DNA of 64,000 nt. It comes from an uncultured Dokdonia sp. GTDB taxonomy: Bacteria > Bacteroidota > Bacteroidia > Flavobacteriales > Flavobacteriaceae. The translations under genes and the position numbers were made by a program. The first letter of the stretch is position 1, and every line of letters begins with the position of its first letter. This document shows, piece after piece, positions 2,541-60,893 of this stretch. Location of the stretch: assembly GCA_947503305.1 (NCBI GenBank), contig CANNDF010000005.1, positions 1 through 64,000 of the forward strand. Reading direction: 5' to 3'. Under the pieces are notes generated by a model. That model worked only from the letters and a program-made list of their open reading frames with translations, was not told the origin of the DNA and did not search any database.

Positions 2541-2554
2541 GCTTTCGCGAAAGC
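2541..2554. repeat. GCTTTCGCGAAAGC palindrome, copy 1
   Basis: Perfect 14-bp copy, intergenic, 3 bases after the M42 peptidase stop and just before its terminator. Confidence 0.9.
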
Positions 2555-2564
2555 ATATACCTAC

Positions 2565-2597
2565 AAAAGCCAAGTCATAATATTTCTTGGCTTTTTT
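2565..2597 (+). terminator. Rho-independent terminator of the M42 gene
   Basis: Stem AAAAGCCAAG / CTTGGCTTTT around an 11-base loop, followed by a T-run. Confidence 0.85.
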
Positions 2598-2807
2598 TAA
2601 TATGGAAAAACAGGGGTATTTACCTATTTTTCATTCATTCATTAGCAATACCTTTGTTTTTTGTTTATTTTTGAACTAATCTTTCTGATTAAGAAATGGT
2701 TATCAAATTAATTCATGTTAAAAGAAATTAATATTATCATAATGTATAGGCAATAAAATAAGTCTATTTTTGTGAATCAAAACTTTACTTTAATATTCAA
2801 AACAATT

Positions 2808-4250
2808 ATGAAAAAATTACTAGCCCTATTTTGCTTTACAATGCTATGTATTGCATGTAGTACTGAAGAAAATTTAGATACAACAGATTCTACAAATTTT
2901 GGCACAGAGACAGTATTTGAAGAAAGTGTAACCCTACCTGATAATTATAAAGGGGTATTTACTACCGCAAATGGTCAACACCGAGGAACTTTAGATGTTG
3001 TAATCGCAACGGATAACAGATCTGCTACGGCAAACTTGACCCTATCTACAAATGAAGTAGTTTCAATTACTACTACCAATATTACGGATTTAGGAAACTC
3101 GAAAGAAATACAATTTTCTTCTACTGAGTTATCATTTGTAATGACAACAGAAGCAGAGGGAATCGCTTATGCTATAGAAGATGTGACCTTTAGAGGTATG
3201 GATAGTGGATTGCTAATGGCTAAAAACACAGAAAGAGCTCCAGCAGCTCCTTTTGATGGGACTTACCTATGTACGACGTGTGCTTCTCCAGTGGATAACT
3301 CACAAACACAGGTATTTAACTTTATGTTTGTAACTGCAGATGGTAATAGTACGATCGCTACACAAACTACATTAAATACAACTATTTATAATGGTATCGG
3401 GGTTCAGGATAACTGTGTCGATAACTCTAATCAAAGAACCTGTGACATTACCAGCGGTGATGGAATGACTACTGTGGGATATACTGCCGGTGGTGGTGAT
3501 GTAACATGGTCTGGAACGCATCGATTCAATACTGAGGCTACAGGTCCTAATGATTGTTCTGAATTTTCAGGAACATGGCAGTGGACCTCTCCTGTAGTAG
3601 GCACCCTAGATGGTACATTTACCAGTGATGGCACATGCCCTCCTGCATCATCACCTCCATTAATTTTTGAAGATTTTGAAGATGCTATGGTAACATACGC
3701 AATAAACTTCCCAGAAGAAGTATCACCAAATGGCGAAGATTTTTATACAAGAACTGACGGGACAAATATTACTTCTGCTTATAATGTATCTAATGTTCAG
3801 GGAGACTGGTGGTTTGCCATGATGGATACAGATGGAACTCTTACAAATGACAATAATAATGTTACATTAACATGGGCAGGTATCCCAGTATCTGGACTTA
3901 CTGATATAGATGTTTCAATTTTATTTGCTGAAGATGATTCTTCTGATGGAAATGAAGATTGGGATGGCGGAGATACACTAAGAGTAGAATACTCATTTAC
4001 AGGTGGTGCTCCATGGACACCTATCATAGCCTTTGCAAATATAACTGGAACAACAAATGGTGCTCCTGCATTAGATACAGATTTTAATGGACTAGGTGAT
4101 TCTACGTTATTAACGCCTACTCTTTCAGAATTTACTGCTAGCTTTACAAATCCAGGTTCCTCAACACTATCTGTACGTATTATTTCTAACTCTCTAAGTC
4201 AAGGAGATGTAGATATTTCTTTTGATAATGTTACTATAAGTGGAAACTAA
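2808..4250 (+). CDS. Surface lipoprotein, shares N-terminal domain with the 15.9 and 22.2 kb lipoproteins
   Basis: I start at ATG 2808 rather than the in-frame GTG at 2772, because ATG gives a clean lipoprotein signal, MKKLLALFCFTMLCIAC, with lipobox C17. This makes 480 residues. After a Thr/Glu-rich linker, the segment DNYKGVFTTANGQHRGTLDV matches the MYKGVFTTTDSEQRGVVEIKV segment of the two larger lipoproteins further right. A Cys-containing region (CTTC, C-x-C pairs) follows with the same TWSGTHRF/TWTGSHTF motif. The last 190 residues look like a beta-sandwich ending in DVDISFDNVTISGN. Probably exported to the outer membrane; function unknown. A TATTTTTG -7 box lies at 2765-2772. Confidence 0.75.
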   Translation: MKKLLALFCFTMLCIACSTEENLDTTDSTNFGTETVFEESVTLPDNYKGVFTTANGQHRGTLDVVIATDNRSATANLTLSTNEVVSITTTNITDLGNSKEIQFSSTELSFVMTTEAEGIAYAIEDVTFRGMDSGLLMAKNTERAPAAPFDGTYLCTTCASPVDNSQTQVFNFMFVTADGNSTIATQTTLNTTIYNGIGVQDNCVDNSNQRTCDITSGDGMTTVGYTAGGGDVTWSGTHRFNTEATGPNDCSEFSGTWQWTSPVVGTLDGTFTSDGTCPPASSPPLIFEDFEDAMVTYAINFPEEVSPNGEDFYTRTDGTNITSAYNVSNVQGDWWFAMMDTDGTLTNDNNNVTLTWAGIPVSGLTDIDVSILFAEDDSSDGNEDWDGGDTLRVEYSFTGGAPWTPIIAFANITGTTNGAPALDTDFNGLGDSTLLTPTLSEFTASFTNPGSSTLSVRIISNSLSQGDVDISFDNVTISGN

Positions 4251-4280
4251 ACAGTATACTAAAACAGTATAATTATAAAT

Positions 4281-4316
4281 AAAAGGGTTACCTATTCTGG
4301 TAGCCCTTTTACTTTT
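4281..4316 (+). terminator. Rho-independent terminator
   Basis: A 12-bp stem (4281-4292 with 4299-4310, one G-T pair) around TATTCT, then a T-rich stretch. It ends the lipoprotein transcript before the MBOAT gene. Confidence 0.85.
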
Positions 4317-4380
4317 ATAGAAAACTACGCTACTAGTCATTTTCCTAGTATTTTTTATCTTCGCTCCCAAAGCCGTTTCT

Positions 4381-5820
4381 GTGTTATTTAATTCTTTTGA
4401 TTTTGGATTATTCTTGCCTATTGTATTTATCTTATACTGGTGGATAGGTGGTAAAAGAATTCGGTTTCAAAATATTCTTCTACTTATTGCCAGTTATTTC
4501 TTTTATGGGGTTTGGGACTGGCGTTTCTTACTTTTAATCTTTGCTAGCTCCTTAGTTGATTTTTATGCCGGGCGATCTATTGCTTTGGCGAAAGTAGAAA
4601 AAAGAAAAAAAGCAGCTGTTTATGTGAGCGTATTCTGGAATCTAGGCGTTCTTTTCGTTTTTAAATACTATAATTTCTTTCTGGATACGATAAAATCTCT
4701 TTTTGAAATCCCAGAGAATACCTTTACGACACTAGATATCATCATACCAGTAGGTCTCAGCTTCTATACTTTTCAGACCATTGGATATACGATAGATGTA
4801 TATCGTAAGAAAATCAACCCTTCAAACGATCTATTGCAATTCTTGTGCTTTGTAAGTTTTTTTCCTCAACTTGTAGCTGGTCCTATAGAAAGAGCTAGTA
4901 AGCTATTACCACAATTTAAAATTCAGCGCGTTTTTAAATATGAAGCTGCCAAAGATGGTTTACGTCAATTATTATGGGGACTCTTTAAAAAAATTGTAGT
5001 TGCAGATAATATCGGGGTTGCTGTTTATGCTATTTATGCACATCCCGAAAATTACGGTTCTATTACCATTATTTATGGAGCATTACTGTTTCTATTTCAA
5101 TTGTACGCCGATTTTTCAGGATATTCGGATATTGCAATAGGTACTGCCAAATTATTTGGTTTTAACCTAAGCACAAACTTTAGGTTACCTTATATAGCAA
5201 ATAGCGTAACTGACTTCTGGAGACGGTGGCATATTACTTTATCCAAATGGTTTCAGGACTATGTGTATTTCCCTTTTGTGAGGAATACTTCAATCCGTGG
5301 AATCTCAAAAAGCAATAGAAAAGTATTGGGACTTATTTTTACCATGAGCCTTGTCGGACTATGGCACGGAGCTAACTGGACATATCTTATTTTTGGTATT
5401 TTACACGGCTTGCTCATTGCAATTGAAGCGATACCTATTTACAAGAGAGGTAAAAGAATAAAACTACACCAATGGTTGGATTCTGGAGTGTTGTTATCTA
5501 AACCTTATACCATCACCTTTCTTGTGATCTCCTTAATATTTTTTAGAGCAAACTCTATTGAGAGTGCTGGTACTATGATACTGGAAATTTTTACACAGAA
5601 TATTCCATTTTTTGATTTTAGTTTTATTATTGGAAAAAAAATCTTATTCCTCGTTATTATGATTATTGCCGAATTATGGAGAAGAGATTATATACATCCA
5701 TTTAAAAATATAGAAACCGTTATTCCTAAAGTTATAAGATGGGGAATTTACTATTTTTTAATTTTTGCAATTATACGTTATGGAAGACCTGATGAAGCAT
5801 TTATTTATTTTCAATTTTGA
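4381..5820 (+). CDS. MBOAT family O-acyltransferase (AlgI/DltB-like)
   Basis: 479-residue polytopic membrane protein using a GTG start that gives the family's standard opening MLFNSFDFGLFLPIVF. Family landmarks in order: YFFYGVWDWRFLLL, SFFPQLVAGPIERASKLLPQ, DFWRRWHITLSKWFQDYVYFP and SLVGLWHGANWTYLIFG with the presumed catalytic His at residue 329. Members move acetyl groups across the inner membrane onto exopolysaccharide or cell-wall polymers. The next gene, an SGNH-type protein, overlaps by one base (TGATG), which is the usual AlgI plus AlgJ/X-like pairing. The polymer being modified is not apparent from the neighbours. Confidence 0.9.
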   Translation: MLFNSFDFGLFLPIVFILYWWIGGKRIRFQNILLLIASYFFYGVWDWRFLLLIFASSLVDFYAGRSIALAKVEKRKKAAVYVSVFWNLGVLFVFKYYNFFLDTIKSLFEIPENTFTTLDIIIPVGLSFYTFQTIGYTIDVYRKKINPSNDLLQFLCFVSFFPQLVAGPIERASKLLPQFKIQRVFKYEAAKDGLRQLLWGLFKKIVVADNIGVAVYAIYAHPENYGSITIIYGALLFLFQLYADFSGYSDIAIGTAKLFGFNLSTNFRLPYIANSVTDFWRRWHITLSKWFQDYVYFPFVRNTSIRGISKSNRKVLGLIFTMSLVGLWHGANWTYLIFGILHGLLIAIEAIPIYKRGKRIKLHQWLDSGVLLSKPYTITFLVISLIFFRANSIESAGTMILEIFTQNIPFFDFSFIIGKKILFLVIMIIAELWRRDYIHPFKNIETVIPKVIRWGIYYFLIFAIIRYGRPDEAFIYFQF

Positions 5821-6749
5821 TGATTAAAAAATTTAGTCTACATACCCTCCTTTTTTTAATTCCAGTGGTCATTGCCTATGGAATAGTAGAACAATACACT
5901 CGAAGTTTACCTCTTTCTCCAAAGATAAAATCTGATTACCTCAACACCCATCACAATGATATTGAAACTCTAGTACTAGGAGCTTCCCAAAATAGAGATG
6001 CTATTAATCCTGAATTCTTATCATCAAGGACCCTAAACCTTGCGTACCCTGATCAAGATTATCATGTAAGCTATAAGGTTCTTAAAGAATTGAGTAGTCG
6101 ATTACCAAAGCTAAAGACTGTTATCATTCCGATATCATATGGCCATTTTGAAACTGCATCGAGTCAGACAGACACATGGAAAAATAGTATGTATAAATAT
6201 TATTTTGAAGTGACTGTTTCTGATAAGTTTACTTACTTTAAAGAAAACCTACTGTACATTAGTTATCCAAACTATTACACCTCTAAAATAAAGGAACATC
6301 GTAAAGGAAAAAGCTCATTAGATTTTAATGATTATGGGTATAATAACGACATATCTTATGGCAAATTTTATAAGCTAAATTATGACAGTTTGAGTATTGC
6401 CAAAAGTTCTATTCATAGTACTCCGGAAAAAGAAAACATCTCTTTTGTTTCAGAAAACACAGAGAAATTAAAAGCAATTATCGCATATTGTAAATCAAAT
6501 GAGTACACCCCTGTTTTTGTAATTACCCCTACTACAAAACGCTTTAGAGATCAACGAATTCCTGGTGTATTGCATCGTAGAGATAGTATAGTCTCTCTGA
6601 TGAAGTCATTGTACGACATTAAACTACTAGATGCTGAGAATGGAGATGCTTACGAGCTTACAGATTATAGAGATGATAATCATTTAAGCCCTAGTGGTGC
6701 CAAAATATTCACAAAACGTCTCAATGTTTTTTTGCAGAAGTATAAGTAA
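5820..6749 (+). CDS. Membrane-anchored SGNH-like partner of the MBOAT acyltransferase
   Basis: ATG at 5820 overlaps the MBOAT stop by one base; the TTG three bases earlier is less likely. 309 residues: an N-terminal membrane anchor (about residues 8-24), then an extracytoplasmic domain. LVLGASQNRD gives a block-I nucleophile candidate S56, and YRDDNHLSPSG gives the Asp-x-x-His pair D285/H288. These are SGNH-hydrolase features, as in AlgJ/AlgX/DltD-type partners that transfer the acyl group to the final polymer. Translational coupling with the MBOAT gene supports one acetylation machine. Exact family and substrate are inference. Confidence 0.75.
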   Translation: MIKKFSLHTLLFLIPVVIAYGIVEQYTRSLPLSPKIKSDYLNTHHNDIETLVLGASQNRDAINPEFLSSRTLNLAYPDQDYHVSYKVLKELSSRLPKLKTVIIPISYGHFETASSQTDTWKNSMYKYYFEVTVSDKFTYFKENLLYISYPNYYTSKIKEHRKGKSSLDFNDYGYNNDISYGKFYKLNYDSLSIAKSSIHSTPEKENISFVSENTEKLKAIIAYCKSNEYTPVFVITPTTKRFRDQRIPGVLHRRDSIVSLMKSLYDIKLLDAENGDAYELTDYRDDNHLSPSGAKIFTKRLNVFLQKYK

Positions 6750-6753
6750 CTAT

Positions 6754-7593
6754 TTATGGAATCCACTTTTTATCAAAATTTGGTTTTCTTTTTTCTAAAA
6801 ATGCATTTCTTCCTTCTTTTGCTTCTTCTGTCATATAAGCAAGTCGAGTAGCTTCGCCTGCAAAGACTTGTTGTCCTACCATACCATCATCAGTAAGGTT
6901 CATTGCAAATTTGAGCATCTTAATAGATATAGGCGATTTAGCCAGAATTTCTTGCGCCCATTCATAAGCAGTATCCTCTAGTTCATCATGAGGAATTACA
7001 GCATTGACCATTCCCATCTCATAGGCTTCCTGAGCAGAGTAATTACGGCCTAAAAAGAAAATCTCACGGGCTTTTTTCTGTCCTACCATTTTGGCTAAAT
7101 ATGCAGATCCGTACCCCCCATCAAAGCTTGTTACATCTGCATCTGTCTGTTTAAAAATTGCATGCTCTTTACTGGCTAATGTAAGATCACACACAACATG
7201 TAAACTATGTCCTCCTCCTACTGCCCATCCAGGAACTACAGCAATCACTGCTTTAGGCATAAAACGTATCAATCGTTGTACTTCTAATATATTAAGTCTA
7301 TGATATCCATCCTCTCCTACATAGCCTTCTTTTCCTCTTGCTCTTTGATCGCCTCCACTACAAAAGCTATAGATTCCATCTCTTGAAGATGGACCCTCGG
7401 CAGATAATAATACAACTCCAATACTTGTATCTTCATTGGCATCATAAAAAGCATCATATAATTCACTTGTTGTTTTAGGACGAAATGCATTACGTACATC
7501 TGGCCTATTGAAGGCTATTCGTGCTACTCCATTGCACTTTGTATAGGTAATATCTATATATTCTTTGGCAGTTTTCCAATCTGGCTGACTCAT
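6754..7593 (-). CDS. menB: 1,4-dihydroxy-2-naphthoyl-CoA synthase
   Basis: 279-residue crotonase-fold enzyme that closes the naphthoate ring from o-succinylbenzoyl-CoA in menaquinone synthesis. Diagnostic stretches are FNRPDVRNAFRPKT, the oxyanion-hole segment FCSGGDQRARG, the GWAVGGGHSLHVVCDLTLAS core and the SFDGGYGSAYLA active-site loop, all typical of MenB rather than general enoyl-CoA hydratases. Length is normal. The other men genes in the window (menF, menD, thioesterase) lie about 4-7 kb away in the same orientation but are separated by unrelated genes. It is divergent from the C1 peptidase with 43 bases between the starts. Confidence 0.95.
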   Translation of the reverse strand: MSQPDWKTAKEYIDITYTKCNGVARIAFNRPDVRNAFRPKTTSELYDAFYDANEDTSIGVVLLSAEGPSSRDGIYSFCSGGDQRARGKEGYVGEDGYHRLNILEVQRLIRFMPKAVIAVVPGWAVGGGHSLHVVCDLTLASKEHAIFKQTDADVTSFDGGYGSAYLAKMVGQKKAREIFFLGRNYSAQEAYEMGMVNAVIPHDELEDTAYEWAQEILAKSPISIKMLKFAMNLTDDGMVGQQVFAGEATRLAYMTEEAKEGRNAFLEKRKPNFDKKWIP

Positions 7594-7636
7594 AAATACT
7601 ATTTTAGCGTAAAAATAACCCTTTATTATAAAAAAA

Positions 7637-8770
7637 ATGAAAAATATACTGCTTTGTATTATGGTTGTATTTGCTTTCGCGAAAGCAGGATTATCACAAG
7701 AAACAACTGCTCCTTATACCTTTACAGATATTATTGATTTAGAAACTACCCCAGTAATTAGTCAAGGAAGAACTGGAACTTGCTGGAGTTTTTCTACTTC
7801 ATCATTTTTAGAAAGCGAAATTACTCGTTTAACAGGGAAAACAGTAGATCTTTCTGAAATGTATACTGTACGCAATACATATCCTATCAAAGCTACTAAT
7901 TATGTAATGCGTCAAGGAAAAGCACAGTTCAGTCAAGGTGGGCTTGCTCATGATGTGATCCATAGCGTATCTCAATATGGCCTTGTCCCTGTAGATGCCT
8001 ATACGGGGCTTGCTCCTACCGAAAATAGTCATGACCATGCAGAAATGGTCGCTGTTATTCAAGCAATGCTAGATACGTATGTAGATAACCCAGGTAGAAA
8101 ACTTAGTAAGAAATGGAAAAGTGCTGTAGATGGTGTACTTGATATTTATTTAGGTAAGAATCTAAAAGAGTTTACTTATGAAGGAAAAAGTTATACACCT
8201 CAACGTTTTACGAAGGCTATGAAGATAGATCCCAAAGCTTATGTAAGTCTAACATCTTTTAAACAAGCTCCATTTTACGCATCTTTTATATTGAATATTC
8301 CTGATAATTTTTCAAATGGCGCTTTCTATAATGTACCGCTAGACGAATTTGTACAAACCATAGATAATGCATTAGAAAATGGATATACGGTGACGCTAGA
8401 TTGTGATGTGAGCGAAAAATCTTTTTCTTCAAAACAAGGAGTTGCTGTAATTCCTGCAGATGCTTCCAAAGCAAAATTGTCTGTTTTGGGACCAGAAAAA
8501 GAAAAAACTATCAATCAACAATACCGACAAGATGAATTTGAAAATTATAATACTACGGATGATCATTTAATGCATATCACGGGTAAAGCTAAAGATCAAA
8601 ATGGTACTATTTATTATAAGGTTAAAAATTCTTGGGGCACACATCCAGATAGAACAAACTATGAAGGATATGTATATATGAGCACTTCATATATACGATT
8701 AAAAGCTATTTCTATATTATTACATAAAGATGCACTTCCAAAGACGATTAAGAAAAATTTAAACTTATAG
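7637..8770 (+). CDS. Secreted C1 family cysteine peptidase (bleomycin hydrolase-like)
   Basis: 377 residues with signal peptide MKNILLCIMVVFAFAKAGLSQ. The papain-like catalytic Cys is C49 in QGRTGTCWSFSTSSFLESE, the His is near residue 313 in DDHLMHITG, and the Asn is near residue 331 in VKNSWG. The order and the large middle insertion resemble aminopeptidase C/bleomycin hydrolase (C1B), here exported rather than cytosolic. The signal peptide encodes AFAKA, which comes from a perfect copy of the repeated 14-bp palindrome. No dedicated terminator is obvious; the gap to the next gene holds a 30-bp palindrome. Confidence 0.88.
   Translation: MKNILLCIMVVFAFAKAGLSQETTAPYTFTDIIDLETTPVISQGRTGTCWSFSTSSFLESEITRLTGKTVDLSEMYTVRNTYPIKATNYVMRQGKAQFSQGGLAHDVIHSVSQYGLVPVDAYTGLAPTENSHDHAEMVAVIQAMLDTYVDNPGRKLSKKWKSAVDGVLDIYLGKNLKEFTYEGKSYTPQRFTKAMKIDPKAYVSLTSFKQAPFYASFILNIPDNFSNGAFYNVPLDEFVQTIDNALENGYTVTLDCDVSEKSFSSKQGVAVIPADASKAKLSVLGPEKEKTINQQYRQDEFENYNTTDDHLMHITGKAKDQNGTIYYKVKNSWGTHPDRTNYEGYVYMSTSYIRLKAISILLHKDALPKTIKKNLNL
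7673..7686. repeat. GCTTTCGCGAAAGC palindrome, copy 2
   Basis: Perfect copy inside the signal-peptide codons of the C1 peptidase, read as AFAKA. Confidence 0.9.
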
Positions 8771-8824
8771 TATATTTCTAAAATATTGCTTTACATCCTA
8801 TTAACAACTATATCGTTATAGGTT

Positions 8825-8854
8825 AATATTTACTATGCATGCATAGTAAATATT
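8825..8854. promoter_or_regulatory. 30-bp perfect palindrome, candidate operator
   Basis: Perfect inverted repeat centred between 8839 and 8840, core TACTATGCATGCATAGTA, extended by ATTTA/TAAAT arms. Its right edge lies 10 bases before the -7 box of the following gene, so it covers the -33 region. No T-run of terminator type follows closely, so an operator reading is preferred. Confidence 0.6.
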
Positions 8855-8864
8855 TTATTTTGAG

Positions 8865-8872
8865 TATTTTTG
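8865..8872 (+). promoter_or_regulatory. Promoter -7 box (TATTTTTG)
   Basis: Matches TAnnTTTG, followed by C as is common, 20 bases before the ATG at 8893. Confidence 0.6.
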
Positions 8873-8892
8873 CACCCTCAAAATTTAGAGAT

Positions 8893-9306
8893 ATGTATTT
8901 ACTTGAAACTGTGTCTAGAAAAGAAATTAAAAAAATTCATATTCTTAAAGCTGGTCCTGTATACGTTTTTGATACCTATATAGTATCCGAATTCAATGAA
9001 GGTGCATTGATTGATTATAGTTGCTTTATAGAATTGTATAGTCTTCTTGATATCTATAGTAATAACAACGATACCTATGGATATATTTCACATCGTAAAA
9101 ACACCTATGCTGTTAAAGCTGCCGATTTTTTAAAGGTTCAAAGTGTTATTGATAAAAAATATCCGGTAGCTGTTGTCACATATAATGAAGATGCTTCAAA
9201 GATGTTTGAATTTGAAAAACAACTTTATAAATGTGATGCTTCTTTATTTAACTCTCTTGATAAAGCAATGACATGGTTATCACAATCTTTTACAAAAGCA
9301 TGTTAA
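8893..9306 (+). CDS. STAS/SpoIIAA-like small cytosolic protein
   Basis: I choose ATG 8893 (MYLLETVSRKEIKKIHIL) because upstream in-frame codons would place the -7 box and palindrome inside the gene. 137 residues, no signal or membrane segment. The alternating beta/alpha pattern and the SRKNTYAVKAADF- and ALFNSLDKAMTWL-type segments resemble the SpoIIAA/STAS-fold proteins common in Flavobacteriaceae, whose role is unknown. The call is from fold resemblance only. It is likely controlled by the 30-bp palindrome upstream. Confidence 0.55.
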   Translation: MYLLETVSRKEIKKIHILKAGPVYVFDTYIVSEFNEGALIDYSCFIELYSLLDIYSNNNDTYGYISHRKNTYAVKAADFLKVQSVIDKKYPVAVVTYNEDASKMFEFEKQLYKCDASLFNSLDKAMTWLSQSFTKAC

Positions 9307-9358
9307 TTATGGTGTGATTTTTGTGACTATGGTGTACATTAGTACAAAATATCCTACT

Positions 9359-9793
9359 ATGATAAAGTTACGTTTCGTTTTCCTATTACTCTTACCTTTA
9401 AGTACTTTTGGACAAGGTTTAGATTTTGAAACCACTGGATTTGAGATAAAGGCAACTACCCTTACCAATGTAACAAGATCATTACTTTCTTATGATTTAA
9501 ACTCAGAAGAGATTCCAACACAGTTCAAAAAATTTGATTCTAGAAGTAGGGAAGATATCTACAATATGCAACAGCCTATGGTATTTGCAACGCATAAGGG
9601 ATTTACTGATAAAAATACAAATAACCCTTCCATTCAGATAGCTCCTTTTAATGCTAATACGGTATATGCGTTTGGAGATGATGGGGGTATTAATGGGGTT
9701 AAAAATATTGCTTATAAACCTTCTAGAGGGCAAAACATTTATGGAGCATATTGTGCTGCTGTATATGCTGCTAATAATCCTATACGTAACTAG
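9359..9793 (+). CDS. Small exported protein of unknown function
   Basis: ATG 9359 gives a signal peptide, MIKLRFVFLLLLPLSTFGQ; the earlier in-frame start at 9314 would precede it with an unlikely extension. 144 residues, about 125 after cleavage. The mature chain is polar and Asn-rich with no Cys except one near the C-terminus (YGAYCAAVYAANN) and no motif I recognise. It follows the STAS-like gene by 52 bases and is convergent with the CvfB gene, with 6 bases between the stops and no clear terminator. Confidence 0.6.
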   Translation: MIKLRFVFLLLLPLSTFGQGLDFETTGFEIKATTLTNVTRSLLSYDLNSEEIPTQFKKFDSRSREDIYNMQQPMVFATHKGFTDKNTNNPSIQIAPFNANTVYAFGDDGGINGVKNIAYKPSRGQNIYGAYCAAVYAANNPIRN

Positions 9794-9799
9794 TCATGA

Positions 9800-10633
9800 C
9801 TATTCTGTGAGGTAAATTCCATCTTCTTTTATAAGAATTTTTCGATCCTTATAAAGTGTCCCTATAGCTTTCTTAAAACTTTTTTTACTCAATCCTAATT
9901 GTGACTGAATATCTTCAGGAGCAGATTTATCATGTAGCGGTAAAAAACCATTATTGGATTCTAGCTCTTCAAAAATATACTGCGCATTAGGTTCTATACT
10001 TTTATACCCCTCTTCTTGAAGCACTATATCTATCTTTCCATCTGCGCGGATTTTTTTTACCCAACCCTCTAACTGATCCCCTGTACGTATATCTTCAAAT
10101 ATATCTTCTTTATAGATTAGTCCTCTATGTTTACTATTAACAATCGCATTTGCACCTCGATCTGTAATATGAGATATAAGAATATGCACCTTATCAAACT
10201 TTGCAAGTGTTATAGTATCATTTGACAGGTATTTCATTGTTTTGCTTGTTGCTGCAAGCCTATTTGTTTTTTCATCCAGATACATATAAACGATGTACCA
10301 ACTACCTACTTTCATAGGACGTGCTTGTTGTGCAAAAGGGACAAATAGTTCTTTTTCCAATCCCCAGTCCATAAATGCACCCACACTAGATACAGTAGTG
10401 CAACGTAAATATCCAAAGTTATTAAGTTCTATAAATGGTTTTAGTGTTGTGGCAACTGGGCGTTCTTCATGATCTAGATATACATATACATCCAGTTCAT
10501 CCCAAATTTTATATTCTTCTGGGACATATTTATTAGGTAACAAGACGTCATCACCCGCTTCATTGGATAGAAAAAGACCTGGTTCTGTCTCCCTATCTAT
10601 ACGCATTTTATGGTATTTCCCTATTTCTAGCAT
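9800..10633 (-). CDS. CvfB-type S1 RNA-binding protein
   Basis: 277-residue cytosolic protein with tandem S1-like domains and a C-terminal winged-helix segment, the CvfB/YitL architecture. Seen directly: LFLSNEAGDDVLLPNKYVPE near the N-terminus, the S1-type SSVGAFMDWGLEKELFVPF in the middle, LEGWVKKIRADGKIDI later, and the GLSKKSFKKAIGTLYKDRKI helix-turn-helix end. In Firmicutes CvfB binds RNA and affects virulence-gene expression; its function in Bacteroidetes is not established. A TACTTTTG -7 box 17 bases before the start implies a short leader. Confidence 0.85.
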   Translation of the reverse strand: MLEIGKYHKMRIDRETEPGLFLSNEAGDDVLLPNKYVPEEYKIWDELDVYVYLDHEERPVATTLKPFIELNNFGYLRCTTVSSVGAFMDWGLEKELFVPFAQQARPMKVGSWYIVYMYLDEKTNRLAATSKTMKYLSNDTITLAKFDKVHILISHITDRGANAIVNSKHRGLIYKEDIFEDIRTGDQLEGWVKKIRADGKIDIVLQEEGYKSIEPNAQYIFEELESNNGFLPLHDKSAPEDIQSQLGLSKKSFKKAIGTLYKDRKILIKEDGIYLTE

Positions 10634-10650
10634 AATTTTTAATCTGGATG

Positions 10651-10658
10651 CAAAAGTA
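10651..10658 (-). promoter_or_regulatory. Promoter -7 box of the cvfB-like gene
   Basis: TACTTTTG on the minus strand fits TAnnTTTG and lies 17 bases upstream of the ATG. No clear -33 TTTG is visible. Confidence 0.5.
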
Positions 10659-10671
10659 CAATTACTTCCAT

Positions 10672-10706
10672 AAAAAAACGCTTTGTTATAATACTATATC
10701 AAAGCG
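10672..10706 (-). terminator. Rho-independent terminator of the DUF2853 gene
   Basis: CGCTTTG / CAAAGCG stem with a run of seven T on the minus strand after the stem. Confidence 0.75.
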
Positions 10707-10738
10707 CTCCAAATAGGTTGGTTAGTTATAGTCCTATT

Positions 10739-11080
10739 TTATTTGTAAACAGATTCTTTATTAAAGTGTTTTGTAAGCATATAATATACTACGGCACGAT
10801 ATTTATTACGATTAGATTTTCCGTAGGTTTCAATGACGCTAGCAATTCCTTTATCAAGATCAGAACTATCACTTAATCCTAATTTTTTGATTAAAAAGTT
10901 ATTTTTAACGGTGGCAAGCTCACTCTCATCACTTCCAGATACTGTTGCTGCATCAGCATTATAAATTGATGGCCCACAGCCTATAGTTACCTTCGTAAGA
11001 AGATCCATATCTGGAGTCATCCCACACTTGTTTTTTAAATCATCTGCATACTTTGCGATGAGATCATCTCTTTTGCTCAT
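10739..11080 (-). CDS. DUF2853 family protein
   Basis: 113-residue soluble protein beginning MSKRDDLIAKYADDLKNKCG and containing TKVTIGCGPSIYNADAATVSGSDESEL and a basic C-terminal half (GKSNRNKYRAVVYYMLTKHF). I recognise this as the DUF2853 family of small alpha-helical proteins, function unknown. It sits alone between cvfB and the menaquinone operon, with its own terminator. The short length is normal for the family. Confidence 0.85.
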   Translation of the reverse strand: MSKRDDLIAKYADDLKNKCGMTPDMDLLTKVTIGCGPSIYNADAATVSGSDESELATVKNNFLIKKLGLSDSSDLDKGIASVIETYGKSNRNKYRAVVYYMLTKHFNKESVYK

Positions 11081-11159
11081 AATTATTTAAGTTACTTGTT
11101 GGTTTAACATTTAATGCTCTTAAAGATAAAATATTTTCTAATACTTCCCCAATTAATTT

Positions 11160-12878
11160 TTATTTGATGTATTTAAAGTAATTTATCAGCACTTCATCGT
11201 TGATTTTGCGCGGTGTAAAGATTTCTAGCAACATAGGTTGCACATTGGATGCATATAATTTTGCTACTGCAAAAGTACATTCTTCTTCACTTGTCGCAGA
11301 TAAATATGTAAAATCATACATCTCACATAATTGTTTTGCTGTGAGTTCATGTGTGGTTTCAAAAAAAGTGTCAAAATTTTCAGTATTTTTTTCACGATTA
11401 GGTAATATTCTAAAGATACCTCCTCCATTATTATTAATGACAATGAGCTTAAAATTATTTGGGATGTATTTATTCCATAAAGCATTACTGTCATAAAAAA
11501 AACTTAGATCTCCTGTAATAAATGTAGTAGGTTTATGAGAAGCTACTGCTGCTCCTATTGCAGTACTCGTACTCCCGTCGATCCCGCTGGTTCCTCGATT
11601 ACAATATACTTCTAATGTTTTGTTTAAGTCAAAAAGTTGTGCATATCGTATAGCGCTACTATTTCCTATTTGTAACATAGAATTATCAGGGATAGAAGAT
11701 AATATGCCATCAAATACTTTAAAATCACACCAAGGCATCTTGCTTATATATTGAGAGTGTTGTGTGTCTCGTTTTCCTCTTATATCTAGCCATTTTGATC
11801 TGTACCCCTCTTTTACTGTAGAAATTTCAGATAAAAGCTGTTTAAAAAAGTAATTGGGTGTGACTTCAAAATGTTTGTTTAAACAAAAGTAGGTATCGTA
11901 TGCTTTTTTTGGATCTATATGCCAATGTTGTTGGGGTTGATAATTTCTCAAAAATGCCTTTATCTTTTTTGAGATAACCATTCCTCCAAAAGTAACTAAT
12001 ATCTCTGGCTGTAAGTCTTTAAATCCTTTTTCATCTAATGAGCCTATCATATTATCAATACGGGTAAAAAAATGTGGATGTGCAAGATTTGATGTAGTTT
12101 CTGTAAATACAATAACAGAAGAATCCCTCCCTAACAGTTGTAGTATTTTTTCCTCTATGGTATGAGGAGGTAATACACCTATAAGAATCATTTTTCTTGT
12201 AGCATTATTCCATGCTTGCACAAAGGGCTCTAGTTCTATGTCTGTAAGTTCTTGCTCTATATAATGTGGGGCAATATGTATTGGGGATACCGTCATTTGA
12301 TCCACCATTTCATACAGAGGTTCATAAAAAGGAGCATTTATATGTACTGGTCCACTTTGTTCTAAAGCGACATTGAGGGCTTTATTTATTTCTTGCTCAT
12401 TATGTCGTTGGCTTTCGGTAATTTTTTGTTGTACTTTTTTATCGGTTACTACGGTATCTGGAACGATCTCCGAGTATAGATTTGCTGTATATAAAATATG
12501 ATTTTCAAATACATTTTTTTGTCGGATGGTCTGTCCATCTCCTATATCTATACGTTCGACAGGGCGATCTGCGCTTATCACAACGAGAGGAATATCACTA
12601 TAAAAAGCTTCTGCAATGGCAGGATAATAATTAAGTAATGCACTTCCTGAGGTACATACTAGCGCTACAGGTTTTCTTTTTTGTTGGGCGATTCCAAGTC
12701 CAAAAAAAGCGGCACAACGCTCATCAACGATACTGTATGCCGCTATTTGTTTATTTTTTGTAAACTCTATCGTAAGGGGTGCATTACGAGATCCTGGAGA
12801 GATCACAACTTGATCAATACCTTTACTTAGACATAGACTTACAATAGACTGGGCAACAGGAATTTTTGAATGTTTCAT
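11160..12878 (-). CDS. menD: 2-succinyl-5-enolpyruvyl-6-hydroxy-3-cyclohexene-1-carboxylate synthase
   Basis: 572-residue thiamine-diphosphate enzyme that joins isochorismate and 2-oxoglutarate, the second committed step of menaquinone synthesis. The N-terminus VISPGSRNAPLTIEF and the DERCAAFFGLGIAQ segment carry the catalytic Glu region; VVISADRPVE and NRGTSGIDGSTSTAIGAA are MenD hallmarks; GDLSFFYDSNALWN with a following NNGGGIF provides the Mg/ThDP binding motif. Length is typical. It is the last gene of the thioesterase-menF-menD operon, 41 bases after menF. Confidence 0.96.
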   Translation of the reverse strand: MKHSKIPVAQSIVSLCLSKGIDQVVISPGSRNAPLTIEFTKNKQIAAYSIVDERCAAFFGLGIAQQKRKPVALVCTSGSALLNYYPAIAEAFYSDIPLVVISADRPVERIDIGDGQTIRQKNVFENHILYTANLYSEIVPDTVVTDKKVQQKITESQRHNEQEINKALNVALEQSGPVHINAPFYEPLYEMVDQMTVSPIHIAPHYIEQELTDIELEPFVQAWNNATRKMILIGVLPPHTIEEKILQLLGRDSSVIVFTETTSNLAHPHFFTRIDNMIGSLDEKGFKDLQPEILVTFGGMVISKKIKAFLRNYQPQQHWHIDPKKAYDTYFCLNKHFEVTPNYFFKQLLSEISTVKEGYRSKWLDIRGKRDTQHSQYISKMPWCDFKVFDGILSSIPDNSMLQIGNSSAIRYAQLFDLNKTLEVYCNRGTSGIDGSTSTAIGAAVASHKPTTFITGDLSFFYDSNALWNKYIPNNFKLIVINNNGGGIFRILPNREKNTENFDTFFETTHELTAKQLCEMYDFTYLSATSEEECTFAVAKLYASNVQPMLLEIFTPRKINDEVLINYFKYIK

Positions 12879-12919
12879 TTGTGGAGGTAAAAATACGACA
12901 CTCTCTTATTAATTCAGAA

Positions 12920-14454: not shown

Positions 14455-14486
14455 TGCCGTATTTTTATAAAACGAAGATACAATTT

Positions 14487-18666: not shown

Positions 18667-18674
18667 GAATACAT

Positions 18675-49222: not shown

Positions 49223-49843
49223 ATGAAAAAAACAATTTTTAATAACGCCTATCAAAACGATATTACCAATAAAGTAGTTGTAGGTTTAGAACGAATTTCC
49301 GAAGCATTTAAAGTACTTCTCTGGGAACATGCAAAAGTCGTAGGATTAAGCCCTATACAGATCCAAATCATACTATTTATAGCACACCATAAGATCGATT
49401 TATGTACCGTTAGTTATCTTGCACAAGAGTTTAATGTAACAAAACCTACTATAAGTGATGCGGTACGAGTATTACTCAAAAAAGAGTTGATTGAAAAGAA
49501 AACTGCTTCGTCAGATAATAGAAGTTATGCCATAGCATTAACACCTATAGGAGAAGAATTACTTCACAAAATAGAAGATTTTGCCTCGCCCATAAAAAGT
49601 CAGTTACTATCTATAGATCCCGATGAGGTAAAACAAATATATCATACCATTACAAAACTCATTTATGGATTAAATAAATCAGGAATCCTCAACATACAAC
49701 GTAATTGTTATAGTTGTTCCTTTTATGAGCAAAATGAAGGCAATCATTATTGTAACTACTTAAAAATGCCTTTAAAAAATCATGAAATTCGCATAGATTG
49801 CCCAGAGTACGAAGAGAAACCTACAGGAACATTTCATTCATGA
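49223..49843 (+). CDS. MarR family transcriptional regulator with C-terminal four-Cys motif
   Basis: ATG 49223 preferred over TTG 49214. 206 residues: an N-terminal MarR winged helix (about 20-140) with LAQEFNVTKPTISDAVRVLLKKELIEKK as the recognition region, and a C-terminal extension holding C162-x2-C165-x11-C177-x15-C193. The four Cys could hold a zinc or iron-sulfur site, or act as a thiol switch. Its promoter holds a TTAGGATTACTAA operator, suggesting autoregulation. Stop overlaps the RluA start (ATGA). Confidence 0.9.
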   Translation: MKKTIFNNAYQNDITNKVVVGLERISEAFKVLLWEHAKVVGLSPIQIQIILFIAHHKIDLCTVSYLAQEFNVTKPTISDAVRVLLKKELIEKKTASSDNRSYAIALTPIGEELLHKIEDFASPIKSQLLSIDPDEVKQIYHTITKLIYGLNKSGILNIQRNCYSCSFYEQNEGNHYCNYLKMPLKNHEIRIDCPEYEEKPTGTFHS

Positions 49844-54626: not shown

Positions 54627-56189
54627 CTATCGCATCAACCCTTTTGCTTTTGCTTTGATAACATCGGCGACAGGTTTATTTTCTATTTTACTTTCCAACC
54701 ACGATAGAACATCTAGGTATAAGAAGGCTCTTTTTTCATAAGGATCATCTTCATAAACTTTAAGTTGGGCATGTAGTTTTTTAAATTCCTTTTTTAGTTC
54801 ATGAGGATAGATATCTCCTAGTCCACGTACAAATCCTATTATAGCACGTTGTACTTCATGTAGATCATTCATTTTAATAAGAAATTTATACGTACTGAGG
54901 AGTAAGGATTCTAAATGATAATCTTTTCCCGCTTCATAATGAGCAATAAGATTGAGTAAGCGTGCAAAACACATCAAATCTTCTCTGGTTTTAAGACTCT
55001 TGACATTGATAATCTTAGCGAGATATTCAATACATTTTGTATAGTTTTCGGCACCAAAATAGAGACTTGCAATCTTATAGTAAAAGACCATAACATGATG
55101 TTCATCAATCCTATACTTGGGAGATTTAATTCCATCTACAATCTCTTTGACTAGCGTTTCAAAATTTGCAAAATCACCTATCATAAATCGTTTGTTAAGA
55201 CGATTGCTATAGATATATAGAAATAATAACGTATCTAGATTATCTGCTTTAGGAAACTTAGGATGGTCTTTAACACTTTCTAAGTGCTTCAGTGCCTTAT
55301 TAAATTTTGAATTATGTTTGAGATAAAATAAGGATTCTAGTAAGTAATGTTGTCCTTTAAGATAAAAAACAGGATTGCGAGTGATCATTGCAGGTTGCTC
55401 ATCAAATAAGCGTACCCATCTTTCGGAATATTTATAGCAAGAAAGAAAATCTTGAATCAAAAAACTGTACCACAGATGTGCTTTGTACAACCATAGTTTT
55501 TCGCGAAAGCCTAATTTTTCTAATTCATAAGAAGGCATATGCGCATCAAAATAATCGGTTACCTCACGCTTTTCCTTATCACTTTTTACGTATCCAGTTT
55601 TAAGCATCATTCCATATAATTGTAAGGATAGATTACTTAATTTACTGGTAAGTACATTTTGCTCACTTAACGCTTTTGATTGTATAGCCAGGGCTTCGGC
55701 ACGTGTCTCAATACTTCGTGTGATATACTGAGTTTCTATGAGTTTTTCTAACTCAACAATTTCATAGGCTATATTTTTTTCTTCGTTTTCAATAGCCATC
55801 GTTTTGGCTTTGTCAAGTGTTTTAAGGCTCTGTTTATACAGTCCCTTTTGATAAAGAATAGTAGCAAAATCCAATTGCTCACGTATTTGCATACGAATAT
55901 TCTGATGAGAAGGAGTTAAGCGTAAACTGATAAGTAGTTGCTTATATAGATGTGCTTTTAAATTAGAAAGTTGCGTTTTTGTAACAATCCCAGTTTTAAG
56001 AATAGACGTTTCATCATAGGTTTTCATTTTATCCATATGATCAAAAAGTAAAAGAAATTTTGCATCTGTATTTCCTCCCAATCTGCCTACATACAATTTA
56101 AATTGTCGTTTTTCACTTTTGGACAACGACTTGATCAACACAAAAAGTGAATCGCTTTCTCCATTTAGTGTTGTAATGATTTTTCTCAT
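54627..56189 (-). CDS. Conserved alpha-helical protein of unknown function
   Basis: 520 residues, no signal or membrane segment, rich in charged residues, mostly helical: MRKIITTLNGESDSLFVLIKSLSKSEKRQFKLYVG, then repeated helices such as LYKQSLKTLDKAKTMAIENEEKNIAYEIVELEKLIE and FGAENYTKCIEYLAKIINVKSLKTREDLMCFARLLNLIAHYEAG. The pattern is TPR-like. I recognise this as a Flavobacteriia-type conserved protein but not its function. It is divergent from leuA with 118 bases between starts. A truncated palindrome copy lies within it. Confidence 0.7.
   Translation of the reverse strand: MRKIITTLNGESDSLFVLIKSLSKSEKRQFKLYVGRLGGNTDAKFLLLFDHMDKMKTYDETSILKTGIVTKTQLSNLKAHLYKQLLISLRLTPSHQNIRMQIREQLDFATILYQKGLYKQSLKTLDKAKTMAIENEEKNIAYEIVELEKLIETQYITRSIETRAEALAIQSKALSEQNVLTSKLSNLSLQLYGMMLKTGYVKSDKEKREVTDYFDAHMPSYELEKLGFREKLWLYKAHLWYSFLIQDFLSCYKYSERWVRLFDEQPAMITRNPVFYLKGQHYLLESLFYLKHNSKFNKALKHLESVKDHPKFPKADNLDTLLFLYIYSNRLNKRFMIGDFANFETLVKEIVDGIKSPKYRIDEHHVMVFYYKIASLYFGAENYTKCIEYLAKIINVKSLKTREDLMCFARLLNLIAHYEAGKDYHLESLLLSTYKFLIKMNDLHEVQRAIIGFVRGLGDIYPHELKKEFKKLHAQLKVYEDDPYEKRAFLYLDVLSWLESKIENKPVADVIKAKAKGLMR
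55499..55510. repeat. Truncated palindrome copy (TTTCGCGAAAGC)
   Basis: 12 of 14 bases, inside the 520-residue unknown gene, read as GFREK on the minus strand. Confidence 0.75.
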
Positions 56190-57596: not shown

Positions 57597-58982
57597 ATGA
57601 GTAAAACATTATTTGATAAAGTCTGGGATGCCCATGTTGTAGATACAATTCCTGATGGACCACAGATTTTATATATAGACAAACACCTTATACATGAGGT
57701 GACGAGTCCACAGGCATTTAATGAACTTGAAGCCCGAGGAATTCCGATTGCACGACCTGATCAGATTGTGGCAACAGCAGACCATAACACTCCCACCGTA
57801 AATCAACATTTACCTATTAAAGATCCGCTTTCGCGAAATCAACTAGAACAACTCACCAAAAATTGTGAGAAACATGGGATTACCCTTTATGCTCTAGGGC
57901 ATGAATACAACGGTATTGTACATGTGATGGCTCCAGAACTTGGAATCACACAACCTGGAATGACGATGGTATGTGGCGATAGTCATACCAGTACTCATGG
58001 TGCTTTTGGCACTATCGCTTTTGGTATAGGAACCAGTCAGGTAGCTCAGGTATTTGCAAGTCAAAGTCTGTTGCTTAAAAAACCCAAAAGTCTACGTGTC
58101 AATGTAAATGGCACTCTTGCTGCGGGGGTATTACCCAAAGATGTCATCTTATATATTATCTCTCAGATAGGTACGAATGCAGGCACAGGTTATTTCTGTG
58201 AATACGCAGGTAATGTTTTTGAAGAGATGTCTATGGAAGGTCGTATGACCGTATGTAATATGAGTATCGAAATGGGAGCTCGTGGTGGTATGATCGCACC
58301 AGATCAAACTACATTTGATTATATAGAAGGGAAGAAATTTGCTCCGCAAGGAGACGCTTTCGCGAAAGCGGTCTCCTATTGGAAAACCCTACCCACAGAT
58401 CCTGACGCTGTCTTTGACAAAGAATATCATTTTGATGCTGCAGATATTGGCCCTATGCTTACGTATGGTACCAATCCAGGGATGGGAATTAAAATCAATG
58501 CACATATCCCAGAAACGGGAGATATGACATTTGAAAAAGCATTAGAATACATGGATTTTAAAGGAGGTACACAATTACTAGACACCCCTATTAACTATGT
58601 ATTTATAGGAAGTTGTACAAATTCTCGCATTGAAGATTTTAGAGTAGCCGCACATTATATAAAAGGAAAACAAAAAGCCGCACATGTCAATGCATGGCTA
58701 GTACCAGGATCACAACAAGTCGTCAAGCAATTACAAGAAGAAGGGCTGACGCAGGTATTTGAAGCAGCCGGGTTTACGCTAAGAGAACCTGGTTGCTCTG
58801 CTTGCCTTGCCATGAATGATGATAAAATTCCGTCGGGAGAATATTGTGTTTCTACTTCCAATCGAAATTTTGAAGGTCGCCAAGGACAAGGGGCTCGTAC
58901 CATACTTGCCAGTCCTCTAGTAGCCGCAGCAACAGCTATTGAAGGAAAAATAATAGACATTACAAAAACAGTCAAAATCTAA
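57597..58982 (+). CDS. leuC: 3-isopropylmalate dehydratase large subunit
   Basis: 461 residues of the aconitase-fold large subunit. Cluster cysteines are in [12 protein letters not shown] (about 340) and [10 protein letters not shown] (C400, C403); other motifs: [46 protein letters not shown]. With LeuD it isomerises 2-isopropylmalate to 3-isopropylmalate. Stop overlaps the leuD start by one base. Two palindrome copies lie in the gene (one truncated at 57827, one perfect at 58356). Confidence 0.98.
57827..57838. repeat. Truncated palindrome copy (GCTTTCGCGAAA)
   Basis: 12 of 14 bases, inside leuC, read as PLSRN. Confidence 0.75.
58356..58369. repeat. GCTTTCGCGAAAGC palindrome, copy 10
   Basis: Perfect copy inside leuC, read as AFAKA. 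Confidence 0.9.
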
Positions 58983-59587
58983 TGGAAAAATTCAGCACCT
59001 TAATAACGACAGCAGTTCCATTACCTATAGAAAATGTAGATACCGATCAAATTATCCCAGCACGATTTTTAAAAGCTACAGATAAGAAAGGGTTTGGAGA
59101 CAATGTATTCAGAGATTGGAGATATACAAATGACGGAAATAAACATGAAGATTTTCCATTAAACCAACCACAGTATGCAAACGCACAGATATTAGTAGCG
59201 GGTGATAATTTTGGATGTGGTTCCAGTCGTGAGCATGCCGCATGGGCGATTGTCGGATATGGATTTAAAGTAGTGATTTCTAGCTTTTTTGCAGATATCT
59301 TTAAAGGAAATGCACTCAATAATGGCCTCCTTCCTATTCAAGTGTCTCCAGATTTTCTTACTACGCTTTTAAAAGAAGTACAAACGCATCCAGCAACTCC
59401 TATTACTGTAGATCTAGAAGCACAAACAGTTCATTATAAAACATCTGGACAAGAGATCAAAACAACTTTTGAAATAGATCCCTATAAAAAAGTATGCATG
59501 ATCAATGGTTATGATGATATCGATTATCTTGTAAATAGTAAAGAAAAAATAGAAAACTTTGAAAAAGAAAGAGTTATCTTTAAATAA
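58982..59587 (+). CDS. leuD: 3-isopropylmalate dehydratase small subunit
   Basis: 201 residues. [22 protein letters not shown] and the [30 protein letters not shown] core are diagnostic of the LeuD swivelling domain. Length is normal. The start ATG shares its A with the leuC stop (TAATG), ensuring coupled expression of the two subunits. leuB follows after 42 bases. Confidence 0.98.
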
Positions 59588-59629
59588 CACACAAAGAATT
59601 TAGATAAAAATAGAGACGTATACCTGTTT

Positions 59630-60745
59630 ATGAAATACCAAATAGCCATAATTCCAGGAGATGGAATAGGACCTGAAGTCACCGCTCAAGCAAAAAAAGC
59701 ATTGGATGCAATTGCAGATATTTTTGAACATCAATTTACATATACCACTGCTCAGATGGGTGCGTGTGCTATAGATGCTACAGGAAATCCATTACCAGAA
59801 GAAACAATAGATATTTGTGAGGCTTCAGATGCGATCCTTTTTGGGGCGATCGGACACCCAAAATATGATAATGACCCGAATGCTAAAGTACGTCCAGAAC
59901 AAGGACTGTTGCGTTTACGTAAATCTTTAGGACTCTTTTGTAATATACGCCCTGTAAAAGCATATGAACAATTGATTGAAAACTCTCCTCTAAAAAAAGA
60001 TATTATTGCAGGAACAGATATCTCTATCTACAGAGAATTAACCGGAGGTATTTATTTTGGAGAAAAACAATTGAGTGAAGACGGACAAGTAGCTTCTGAT
60101 GGTTGCTCGTATTCTGTAGAAGAAATAAGTCGTATTACCCATCTTGCCTTTAAAGAAGCACAGAATAGACGAAAAAAACTGACGCTGGTAGACAAAGCAA
60201 ATGTATTGGAAACGTCTCGCCTTTGGCGAAAAACAGTAACAGAGATTTCTAAAAACTATCCTGATGTTACATTGGATTTTCTGTTTGTAGATAATGCTGC
60301 CATGCAAATGATCTTACATCCGAAACAGTTTGATGTAATTCTTACCGAAAATTTATTTGGAGATATAATCTCTGATGAAGCGAGTGTTATAGGAGGGTCT
60401 ATAGGTCTACTTGCTTCGGCTTCTGTAGGAGAAGACAATGCTTTGTTTGAACCTATCCACGGCAGTTTTCCGCAAGCAACAGGAAAAGATATTGCAAATC
60501 CGCTTGCCAGTATTCTATCTGCGGCAATGCTATTAAGACATCTAGACCTACATAAAGAAGCTACTTTGGTAGAAGCTGCTGTAGAAAAATCACTAGAGCT
60601 TGGGTTTACAACCTCAGATATCAATCCAGACAATCCTTTTGGGACTTCCAAAGTAGGAGATTTTATTGCTGATTTTATTCTTAACCCAGAAGATCCTAAC
60701 CGTAATTTTCAAAATATATTTGTAGGACAAAGTACAATTATTTAA
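59630..60745 (+). CDS. leuB: 3-isopropylmalate dehydrogenase
   Basis: 371 residues. IAIIPGDGIGPEVTAQAKKAL opens the NAD-binding fold; LLRLRKSLGLFCNIRPVKAY, TGGIYFG, VDKANVLETSRLWRK, DVILTENLFGDIISDEASVIGGSIGLLASAS and EPIHGSFPQATGKDIANP are the substrate and NAD motifs. It oxidises and decarboxylates 3-isopropylmalate to the leucine precursor. Final gene of leuACDB, followed by a strong terminator. Confidence 0.98.
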   Translation: MKYQIAIIPGDGIGPEVTAQAKKALDAIADIFEHQFTYTTAQMGACAIDATGNPLPEETIDICEASDAILFGAIGHPKYDNDPNAKVRPEQGLLRLRKSLGLFCNIRPVKAYEQLIENSPLKKDIIAGTDISIYRELTGGIYFGEKQLSEDGQVASDGCSYSVEEISRITHLAFKEAQNRRKKLTLVDKANVLETSRLWRKTVTEISKNYPDVTLDFLFVDNAAMQMILHPKQFDVILTENLFGDIISDEASVIGGSIGLLASASVGEDNALFEPIHGSFPQATGKDIANPLASILSAAMLLRHLDLHKEATLVEAAVEKSLELGFTTSDINPDNPFGTSKVGDFIADFILNPEDPNRNFQNIFVGQSTII

Positions 60746-60790
60746 GAGCTCACATAGATATAATACTTACGACACAGATCGTATCCTTTT

Positions 60791-60818
60791 AAAAGCCAAA
60801 CGATATGTTTGGCTTTTT
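60791..60818 (+). terminator. Rho-independent terminator of leuACDB
   Basis: 11-bp perfect stem AAAAGCCAAAC / GTTTGGCTTTT around GATAT, followed by T. Confidence 0.9.
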
Positions 60819-60879
60819 CCAGTAGTAGAATAGGTTTTTAGAATAGTATATAGAAAACTCGTAAAATGTATGTGTATTC

Positions 60880-60893
60880 GCTTTCGCGAAAGC
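60880..60893. repeat. GCTTTCGCGAAAGC palindrome, copy 11
   Basis: Perfect intergenic copy between leuB and the OsmC gene; the left flank TGTATTC mirrors the right flank of copies 4 and 5. Confidence 0.9.

Follow-up and report, generated by a model that had tools for sequence, protein, structure and literature searches.

The window analyzed here is a stretch of 64,000 nucleotides from the genome of an uncultured Dokdonia species (Flavobacteriaceae; contig CANNDF010000005.1). The initial annotation of this DNA drew attention to a 14-bp palindrome, GCTTTCGCGAAAGC, that recurs along the window. A search recovered the eleven perfect copies at exactly the coordinates given there, and the three shorter copies reported with them are also real, one with a single mismatch and two with two mismatches each (Table 1). 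With up to two mismatches allowed, the window contains 16 matches, whereas 100 dinucleotide shuffles averaged 0.06 and never gave more than 1. Placement both in and between genes is borne out by the list of open reading frames (ORFs), with five of the eleven perfect copies genic and six intergenic.

The abundance extends far beyond this window. The source genome (G000; 4,264,867 bp) contains 570 perfect copies and none of the reversed control pattern, so that the genome-wide density is far above the control; allowing one mismatch raises the count to 668, hence 98 imperfect copies. Among 397 genomes of the family, six contain hundreds of copies (408–857), 74 contain 1–19, and 317 contain none. 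Confinement to this one window, a possibility raised in the initial annotation, is thereby ruled out. A sample of 395 genomes from the class gave matches in 24, and more than four copies occur solely in the source genome itself. Where genomes are named, Dokdonia and Nonlabens recur among 80 of at least 107 matches listed. The six motif-rich carriers are the source genome, G206 (matching Dokdonia sinensis SH27), G010, G242 (matching Nonlabens xylanidelens), G394 (a Nonlabens metagenome-assembled genome), and G190 (3.16 Mb, 41–48% G+C per stretch). They span Dokdonia, Nonlabens and one further genus. Perfect copies far exceed one-mismatch copies in all six (570/98, 857/160, 578/87, 664/74 for a Nonlabens genome, 609/103, and 408/128), and in four carriers (stretches of 363, 326, 400, and 740 kb) the 8-mers and 12-mers with the strongest over-representation are fragments of the motif. 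The motif GCTTTCGCGAAAGC was not found in the literature searched, including work on Dokdonia and Nonlabens, on uptake sequences in Bacteroidetes, on highly iterated palindromes, and on natural transformation, with most subscription journals outside the search. The sequence TTTCGCGAAA comes up together with palindromes in two papers, one of which deals with absent oligomers.

Table 1. Copies of the palindrome in the window, with the state of the corresponding site in D. sinensis
Position	Match	Location	Encoded residues	D. sinensis	Remarks
2541–2554	perfect	intergenic, directly 3′ of the stop codon of ORF 1449–2537
4582–4595	two mismatches				absent from the initial annotation
7673–7686	perfect	ORF 7637–8770 (+), papain-like peptidase	AFAKA, near N-terminus	ortholog intact
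13663–13676	perfect	ORF 12920–14032 (−), chorismate-binding enzyme	LSRK	intact
18639–18680	perfect (core 18653–18666)	intergenic			core centred in a 42-bp perfect palindrome, 14 bp beyond the core on each side
24673–24686	perfect	intergenic
32399–32412	perfect	intergenic
36494–36507	perfect	intergenic, upstream of HSP70 (dnaK) gene 34455–36368 (−)
40603–40616	perfect	ORF 40480–40992 (+), GNAT acetyltransferase	AFAKA	copy near the matching coordinate (L158:14604), by coordinate only
41812–41825	two mismatches
46308–46321	two mismatches				absent from the initial annotation
50227–50240	perfect	ORF 49798–50544 (+), pseudouridine synthase	AFAKA	not intact
55497–55510	two mismatches
57827–57840	one mismatch	leuC
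58356–58369	perfect	aconitase-family gene read as leuC (57597–58982, +)	AFAKA	intact	built by substitution
60880–60893	perfect	intergenic

Anatomy, placement and spacing of the sites

The palindrome is embedded in a larger site. The extended consensus reads TNY-core-RNA, and beyond it G is depleted on the right and C on the left up to about position +19, where the composition returns to background. Per-side information, summed over the interval, is 0.97 to 3.69 bits for +4 to +19 and −0.02 to 0.26 bits for +20 to +26 (four genomes). Core and flanks are two-fold symmetric; on both strands the flanks are rich in G/T 5′ and in A/C 3′ of the core. Flank strength declines from perfect to one-mismatch to two-mismatch copies in all four genomes, and 77 of 84 one-mismatch copies deviate at core position 1, 2, 5, or 6, numbered from the outside. 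The preferred flank is GTA in Dokdonia and GRAA in N. xylanidelens.

A periodicity of A at every third flank position is a more tentative feature. Enrichment at +4, +7, +10 and so on is found in the pooled intergenic sites of Dokdonia and Nonlabens (Fisher p = 1e-8, n = 91), in N. xylanidelens (p = 5e-15, n = 47), and weakly in the intergenic sites of G190 (p = 0.0017, n = 15). It is not seen in the source genome alone (p = 0.38, n = 25) or in the frame-1 coding sites of Dokdonia and Nonlabens (p = 0.86, n = 18), and in frame 1 of G190 it runs the opposite way (p = 0.001, n = 20).

Placement was counted relative to simple ORFs of at least 100 aa, omitting sites flanked by fewer than 60 bp. Intergenic DNA makes up 10–12% of the bases and holds 25 of 52 sites in the source genome, 29 of 86 in D. 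sinensis, 47 of 83 in N. xylanidelens, and 15 of 92 in G190; the preference is strongly significant in the first three. Genic sites use all three reading frames (frames 0/1/2: 19/4/4 in the source genome, 35/8/14 in D. sinensis, and 40/20/17 in G190), which argues that the constraint acts on DNA; AFAKA is the commonest encoded stretch. Sites lie somewhat farther from start codons than random positions, and those checked show no preferred distance from stop codons. Copies within the first 75 bp of an ORF make up 4 of 22 genic copies in the source genome, 10 of 54 in D. sinensis, and 1 of 73 in G190. Near N-termini, AFAKA often terminates a signal-peptide-like stretch, as in the window copy at 7673.

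A palindrome with a preference for intergenic DNA, and with one copy centred in a perfect palindrome of 42 bp, could be a transcription terminator or a regulatory operator. The A/C-rich 3′ flank on both strands is, however, the opposite of the T run of an intrinsic terminator, and 27 of 52 copies in the source genome and 77 of 92 in G190 lie inside ORFs. Flank polarity and the missing stop-codon preference together disfavor a terminator, and we consider either role very improbable.

The claim of fairly even spacing also stands. For the source genome we used 103 gaps, namely the 99 between the first 100 listed sites on contig C1, minus six longer than 20 kb, plus ten from the window. Their coefficient of variation (CV) is 0.456, and three are shorter than 2 kb, compared to 22.7 expected. 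A further comparison used a null model that preserves the numbers of genic and intergenic sites. Here the CV is 0.653 versus 0.976 for the null in 164 kb of the source genome (21 gaps, P = 0.017), 0.770 versus 1.046 in D. sinensis, and 0.448 versus 1.013 in N. xylanidelens. The 80 gaps in the latter genome range from 1,619 to 9,789 bp, with none below 1.5 kb where 23.3 were expected. Spacing is more regular than chance, and most so in Nonlabens.

Footprint and spacing bear on the idea of a HIP1-like palindrome whose upkeep would be due to a DNA methyltransferase or to biased repair. Restriction of an iterated palindrome to certain lineages fits this idea. To our knowledge, however, methyltransferase and mismatch-repair targets are shorter than a 14-bp core with flanks to about +19, and a repair bias does not predict regular spacing. 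Even though one report (PMC4390886) discusses a link between highly iterated palindromes as a class and methyltransferases, we judge this origin improbable for the present motif.

Long stretches of the source genome are bare of sites. Three such areas were sampled on contig C1, and 23 of their proteins were scanned. One area encodes a conjugative coupling protein, and another a TraG ATPase, a relaxase, and an integrase. The third (602,550–630,280) contains genes for a T2SSE ATPase (C1:622010–623128, L280) and a secretin (L298:253–2427), which are pilus- or type II secretion-like and, because they lie in a long motif-free gap, may be recent acquisitions. A DncV-like nucleotidyltransferase (CBASS-type cyclase by Pfam; L291:14172–15263) is also encoded in a motif-free region of this genome, together with a conjugative coupling protein.

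Lineages, phages and turnover of sites

For DnaK, compared across 27 genomes, none of 200 bootstrap trees unites all six carriers in one group, and the supported (starred) branches require at least two changes in motif carriage. Trees of ComEC and DPP IV, both encoded in the comEC region, group G190 with Dokdonia at moderate support (94/89, 84/82) and place Nonlabens apart, and again unite the carriers in none of 200. Because none of the three trees unites the carriers, they indicate that the motif is present in at least two separate lineages, either through two gains or through one gain and several losses.

In genomes with few copies, these often lie close together. An identical pair with 933-bp spacing recurs in L031, L032, L034, L035, and L090, which belong to genera otherwise without the motif (e.g., Altibacter and Aquimarina). 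The pair in L032 lies inside an outer-membrane efflux gene with neighbors for an AcrB-type pump, a CusB-type membrane-fusion protein, and a heavy-metal ATPase. Recurrence in genera without the motif, and the metal-efflux type of operon in L032, suggest transfer from a motif-rich donor lineage. Motif clusters may therefore act as tracers of transfer out of such donors.

The motif also occurs in some phage contigs. A scan of viral sequences found it in at least 120 loci; 25 of 132 listed sites, in 19 loci, have site-like flanks, and 18 of these 19 loci lie in 15 records, picked for such flanks, which together span 395,059 bp and hold 48 perfect copies (1–7 per record). Matches of 20 phage proteins that were scanned include portal, major head, tape-measure, terminase, DNA primase, and Mu-like transposase families. 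Several records share gaps between sites (4,480 or 2,958 bp) and are therefore near relatives, not independent. Two Nonlabens phages and a Mu-like phage of Winogradskyella have no copies even at two mismatches. Both Nonlabens phages, which we take to be lytic, are annotated without an integrase and with exonuclease and annealing genes of their own. The presence of the motif on phage contigs suits a function inside the cell.

This distribution is relevant to the proposal of a Chi-like or self-identity mark that disables a DNA-degrading enzyme, which phages sharing the motif would evade. Phage contigs have the motif, and the two Nonlabens phages with exonuclease and annealing genes do not; spacing in Nonlabens avoids both short and long gaps; and a palindrome would serve from either side of a break. 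However, known Chi sites have a short, non-palindromic sequence and a strand bias, the regions with conjugation genes persist without a site, and no enzyme was identified. A Chi-like role is, in our estimate, unlikely.

How a site arises can be followed in leuC. This copy reads GCT TTC GCG AAA GCG in the source genome and D. sinensis, and GCC TTC GAA AAA GCT at the same place in the near relative G158; the carrier G190 lacks it. None of 30 aligned sequences has a gap at the site, which indicates that at this one locus the copy arose by substitution. High copy number and palindromic sequence would also fit a mobile or inserted repeat, such as a REP/RAYT element or a miniature transposon, but the leuC copy lacks an opposing gap, and conserved sequence stops about 19 bp from the core. 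The associated transposase family PF01797 has at least one match in G206, G010, G242, and G394 and none in G000 or G190. The leuC alignment and the two carriers without PF01797 disfavor an insertion or REP origin, which we regard as hardly credible.

Over 29.5 kb aligned between the source genome and D. sinensis (73% identity), three of four source sites are intact, compared to 648 of 26,060 14-bp windows (2.5%). As far as these small numbers indicate, sites are kept between the two Dokdonia species and also turn over. Positions 15900–34400 of the window have no counterpart in the D. sinensis stretch that was compared, which is syntenic outside this segment, and the rest of that genome gave weaker matches only (the comparison covered positions 1–20000 of the window). 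This segment is likely an insertion or a loss relative to D. sinensis.

Candidate functions and related systems

Among the possible functions we give first place, tentatively, to the palindrome as the core of a site for a symmetric DNA-binding complex that acts on resident DNA. This is the best reading because of the symmetry, the sharp footprint, the regular spacing, and the presence on both chromosomes and phages; the excess of perfect over one-mismatch copies also counts in its favor. The core would sit in a two-fold symmetric site of about 52 bp bound by a putative sequence-specific protein complex, which would work on cell-resident DNA at intervals of about 4–8 kb. Its most likely role would be to organize the chromosome, by anchoring loops or the nucleoid, or to mark it for repair or as self. 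The reach of a site would be several kilobases around it, such that little is gained from a second site nearby and long bare stretches are disfavored, giving rise to regular spacing. We infer the binding of a protein, its role, and the upkeep of the sites by selection rather than by drive. A more far-reaching version, which we rate as plausible but less likely than not, is that a putative symmetric complex reads the 52-bp site every few kilobases, with both a minimum and a maximum distance, as a hitherto unrecognized genome-wide spacing system. Two or more lineages of marine Flavobacteria would have acquired it separately, and some of their phages would have adopted it as a mark of resident DNA.

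The main rival, close behind, is a DNA uptake sequence. According to this possible explanation, a surface receptor prefers DNA that bears the site, recombination spreads the copies, and the uptake machine is independent of pili, as in Riemerella. Intergenic enrichment, the leuC copy born by substitution, two long bare regions with conjugation genes, and the dialect-like difference between GTA and GRAA flanks are all in line with uptake. So is the drop in over-representation from perfect to one-mismatch copies, which is 134- to 377-fold in the six genomes if the 42 one-mismatch variants are assumed to be equally likely. The same drop is 92-fold in Haemophilus and 82-fold in Neisseria, by figures in PMC1939737, and uptake sequences of Neisseriaceae leave gaps at genomic islands, according to PMC7371117. 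The latter paper also gives a density of one per 0.4–1.1 kb in Neisseriaceae, compared to which one site per 4–8 kb is sparse. The presence of the motif on phage contigs likewise speaks against uptake, as does its perfect symmetry. We know of no DNA uptake sequence that is a perfect palindrome.

The machinery for uptake gives a mixed picture. ComEC is encoded in 28 of 28 genomes. T2SSE ATPases score above cut-off in two of six motif-rich genomes and in 3 of 22 others; their absence from four carriers counts against a classical uptake sequence and disfavors uptake of the pilus type. Flavobacteria may use a machine other than a type IV pilus. Riemerella, placed in the Flavobacteriaceae by the authors, is transformable with the help of four essential proteins without homologues in known machineries, as described in PMC8459023; the term uptake sequence is not mentioned in the two Riemerella papers searched. 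A gene for a PF01223 non-specific endonuclease (L468:17500–18306 and homologues) lies near comEC in all six motif-rich genomes and in 4 of 14 others, and is a lead for the uptake reading. The association is, however, not exclusive to carriers; it ranked first among some two dozen clusters from the comEC neighborhood, uncorrected for their number. No gene in this neighborhood was present in all six carriers and absent from the 14 others. Two large clusters in this region were rejected as Riemerella uptake genes, since they encode a DPP IV peptidase and POT transporters. Close pairs of sites, which might mark an autoregulated gene, gave no lead to one.

Several observations weigh against a symmetric complex on resident DNA. 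An uptake sequence would account equally well for the intergenic enrichment, the regular spacing, and the gaps at conjugation genes. In G190 the intergenic preference is not significant (p = 0.08), and this single-contig genome reveals no pattern relative to replication origin or terminus (ori/ter): 89 sites in 37 stretches sampled around the chromosome, with 0–5 sites per 20 kb and no bare arc, the origin and terminus themselves being not firmly placed. Spacing in D. sinensis is just moderately regular (17 gaps below 1.5 kb versus 29.7 expected), and only 3 of 10 aligned D. sinensis sites are intact in the source genome. The choice of phage records by their flanks biases the count of copies high, and these related records do not count as independent. 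Finally, the search for a reader protein yielded no candidate; each of the six carriers has a single ParB_N match that looks ordinary.

The helix-turn-helix region of this ParB is, by eye, similar in carriers and other genomes. Sequences of 16 bp that resemble parS (TGTTYCACGTGRAACA type) occur on a Dokdonia pacifica contig (L112, positions 2341, 2456, and 4355) and in G190 (L170, 19052), from which it seems that ordinary ParB sites coexist with the motif. Because each carrier has a single ParB of ordinary appearance and parS-like sequences occur at other places in the DNA examined, ParB or Noc is a poor fit as the reader.

As far as we know, either main explanation would be new. If the motif serves uptake, it would be a palindromic, pilus-independent uptake sequence in Bacteroidota; if it is bound by a symmetric complex, it would be a genome-wide site for chromosome organization or self-marking that obeys a spacing rule. 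Regular spacing, separate carrier lineages, and carriage by phages are strong handles for finding the reader protein.

Comparison with known systems places the motif among several classes of genomic repeats. The likeness to HIP1 noted in the initial annotation is valid in part. Both are short palindromes of very high copy number that are restricted to certain lineages and lie in and between genes. The core GCTTTCGCGAAAGC is nevertheless neither HIP1, GCGATCGC, nor a derivative of it, and differs by its greater length (14 bp, with biased flanks to about 19 bp) and its regular spacing; a link to methyltransferases would be putative for the present motif.

The Neisseriaceae DNA uptake sequences (DUS) and Pasteurellaceae uptake signal sequences (USS) share with the motif a genome-wide distribution, few imperfect copies, and an intergenic preference. 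Flank variants that differ from genus to genus and conserved positions outside the core, as known from USS, are also common to them, and gaps where elements have been acquired may be as well. The motif differs in being palindromic and sparser, in occurring on some phage contigs, and in the lack of T2SSE in four of six carriers. The systems parS/ParB, NBS/Noc, SBS/SlmA, and matS/MatP rely on palindromic protein-binding sites with tens of copies across the chromosome, and the sites of Noc, SlmA, and MatP follow a pattern relative to ori and ter. Our motif would resemble them as a palindromic binding site distributed over the chromosome. It differs in sequence, in its hundreds of copies, and in the lack of an ori/ter pattern in G190. 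Chi sites are likewise a frequent genomic signal at kilobase spacing, from which the present motif is set apart by its palindromic sequence, its greater length, and its symmetric flanks.

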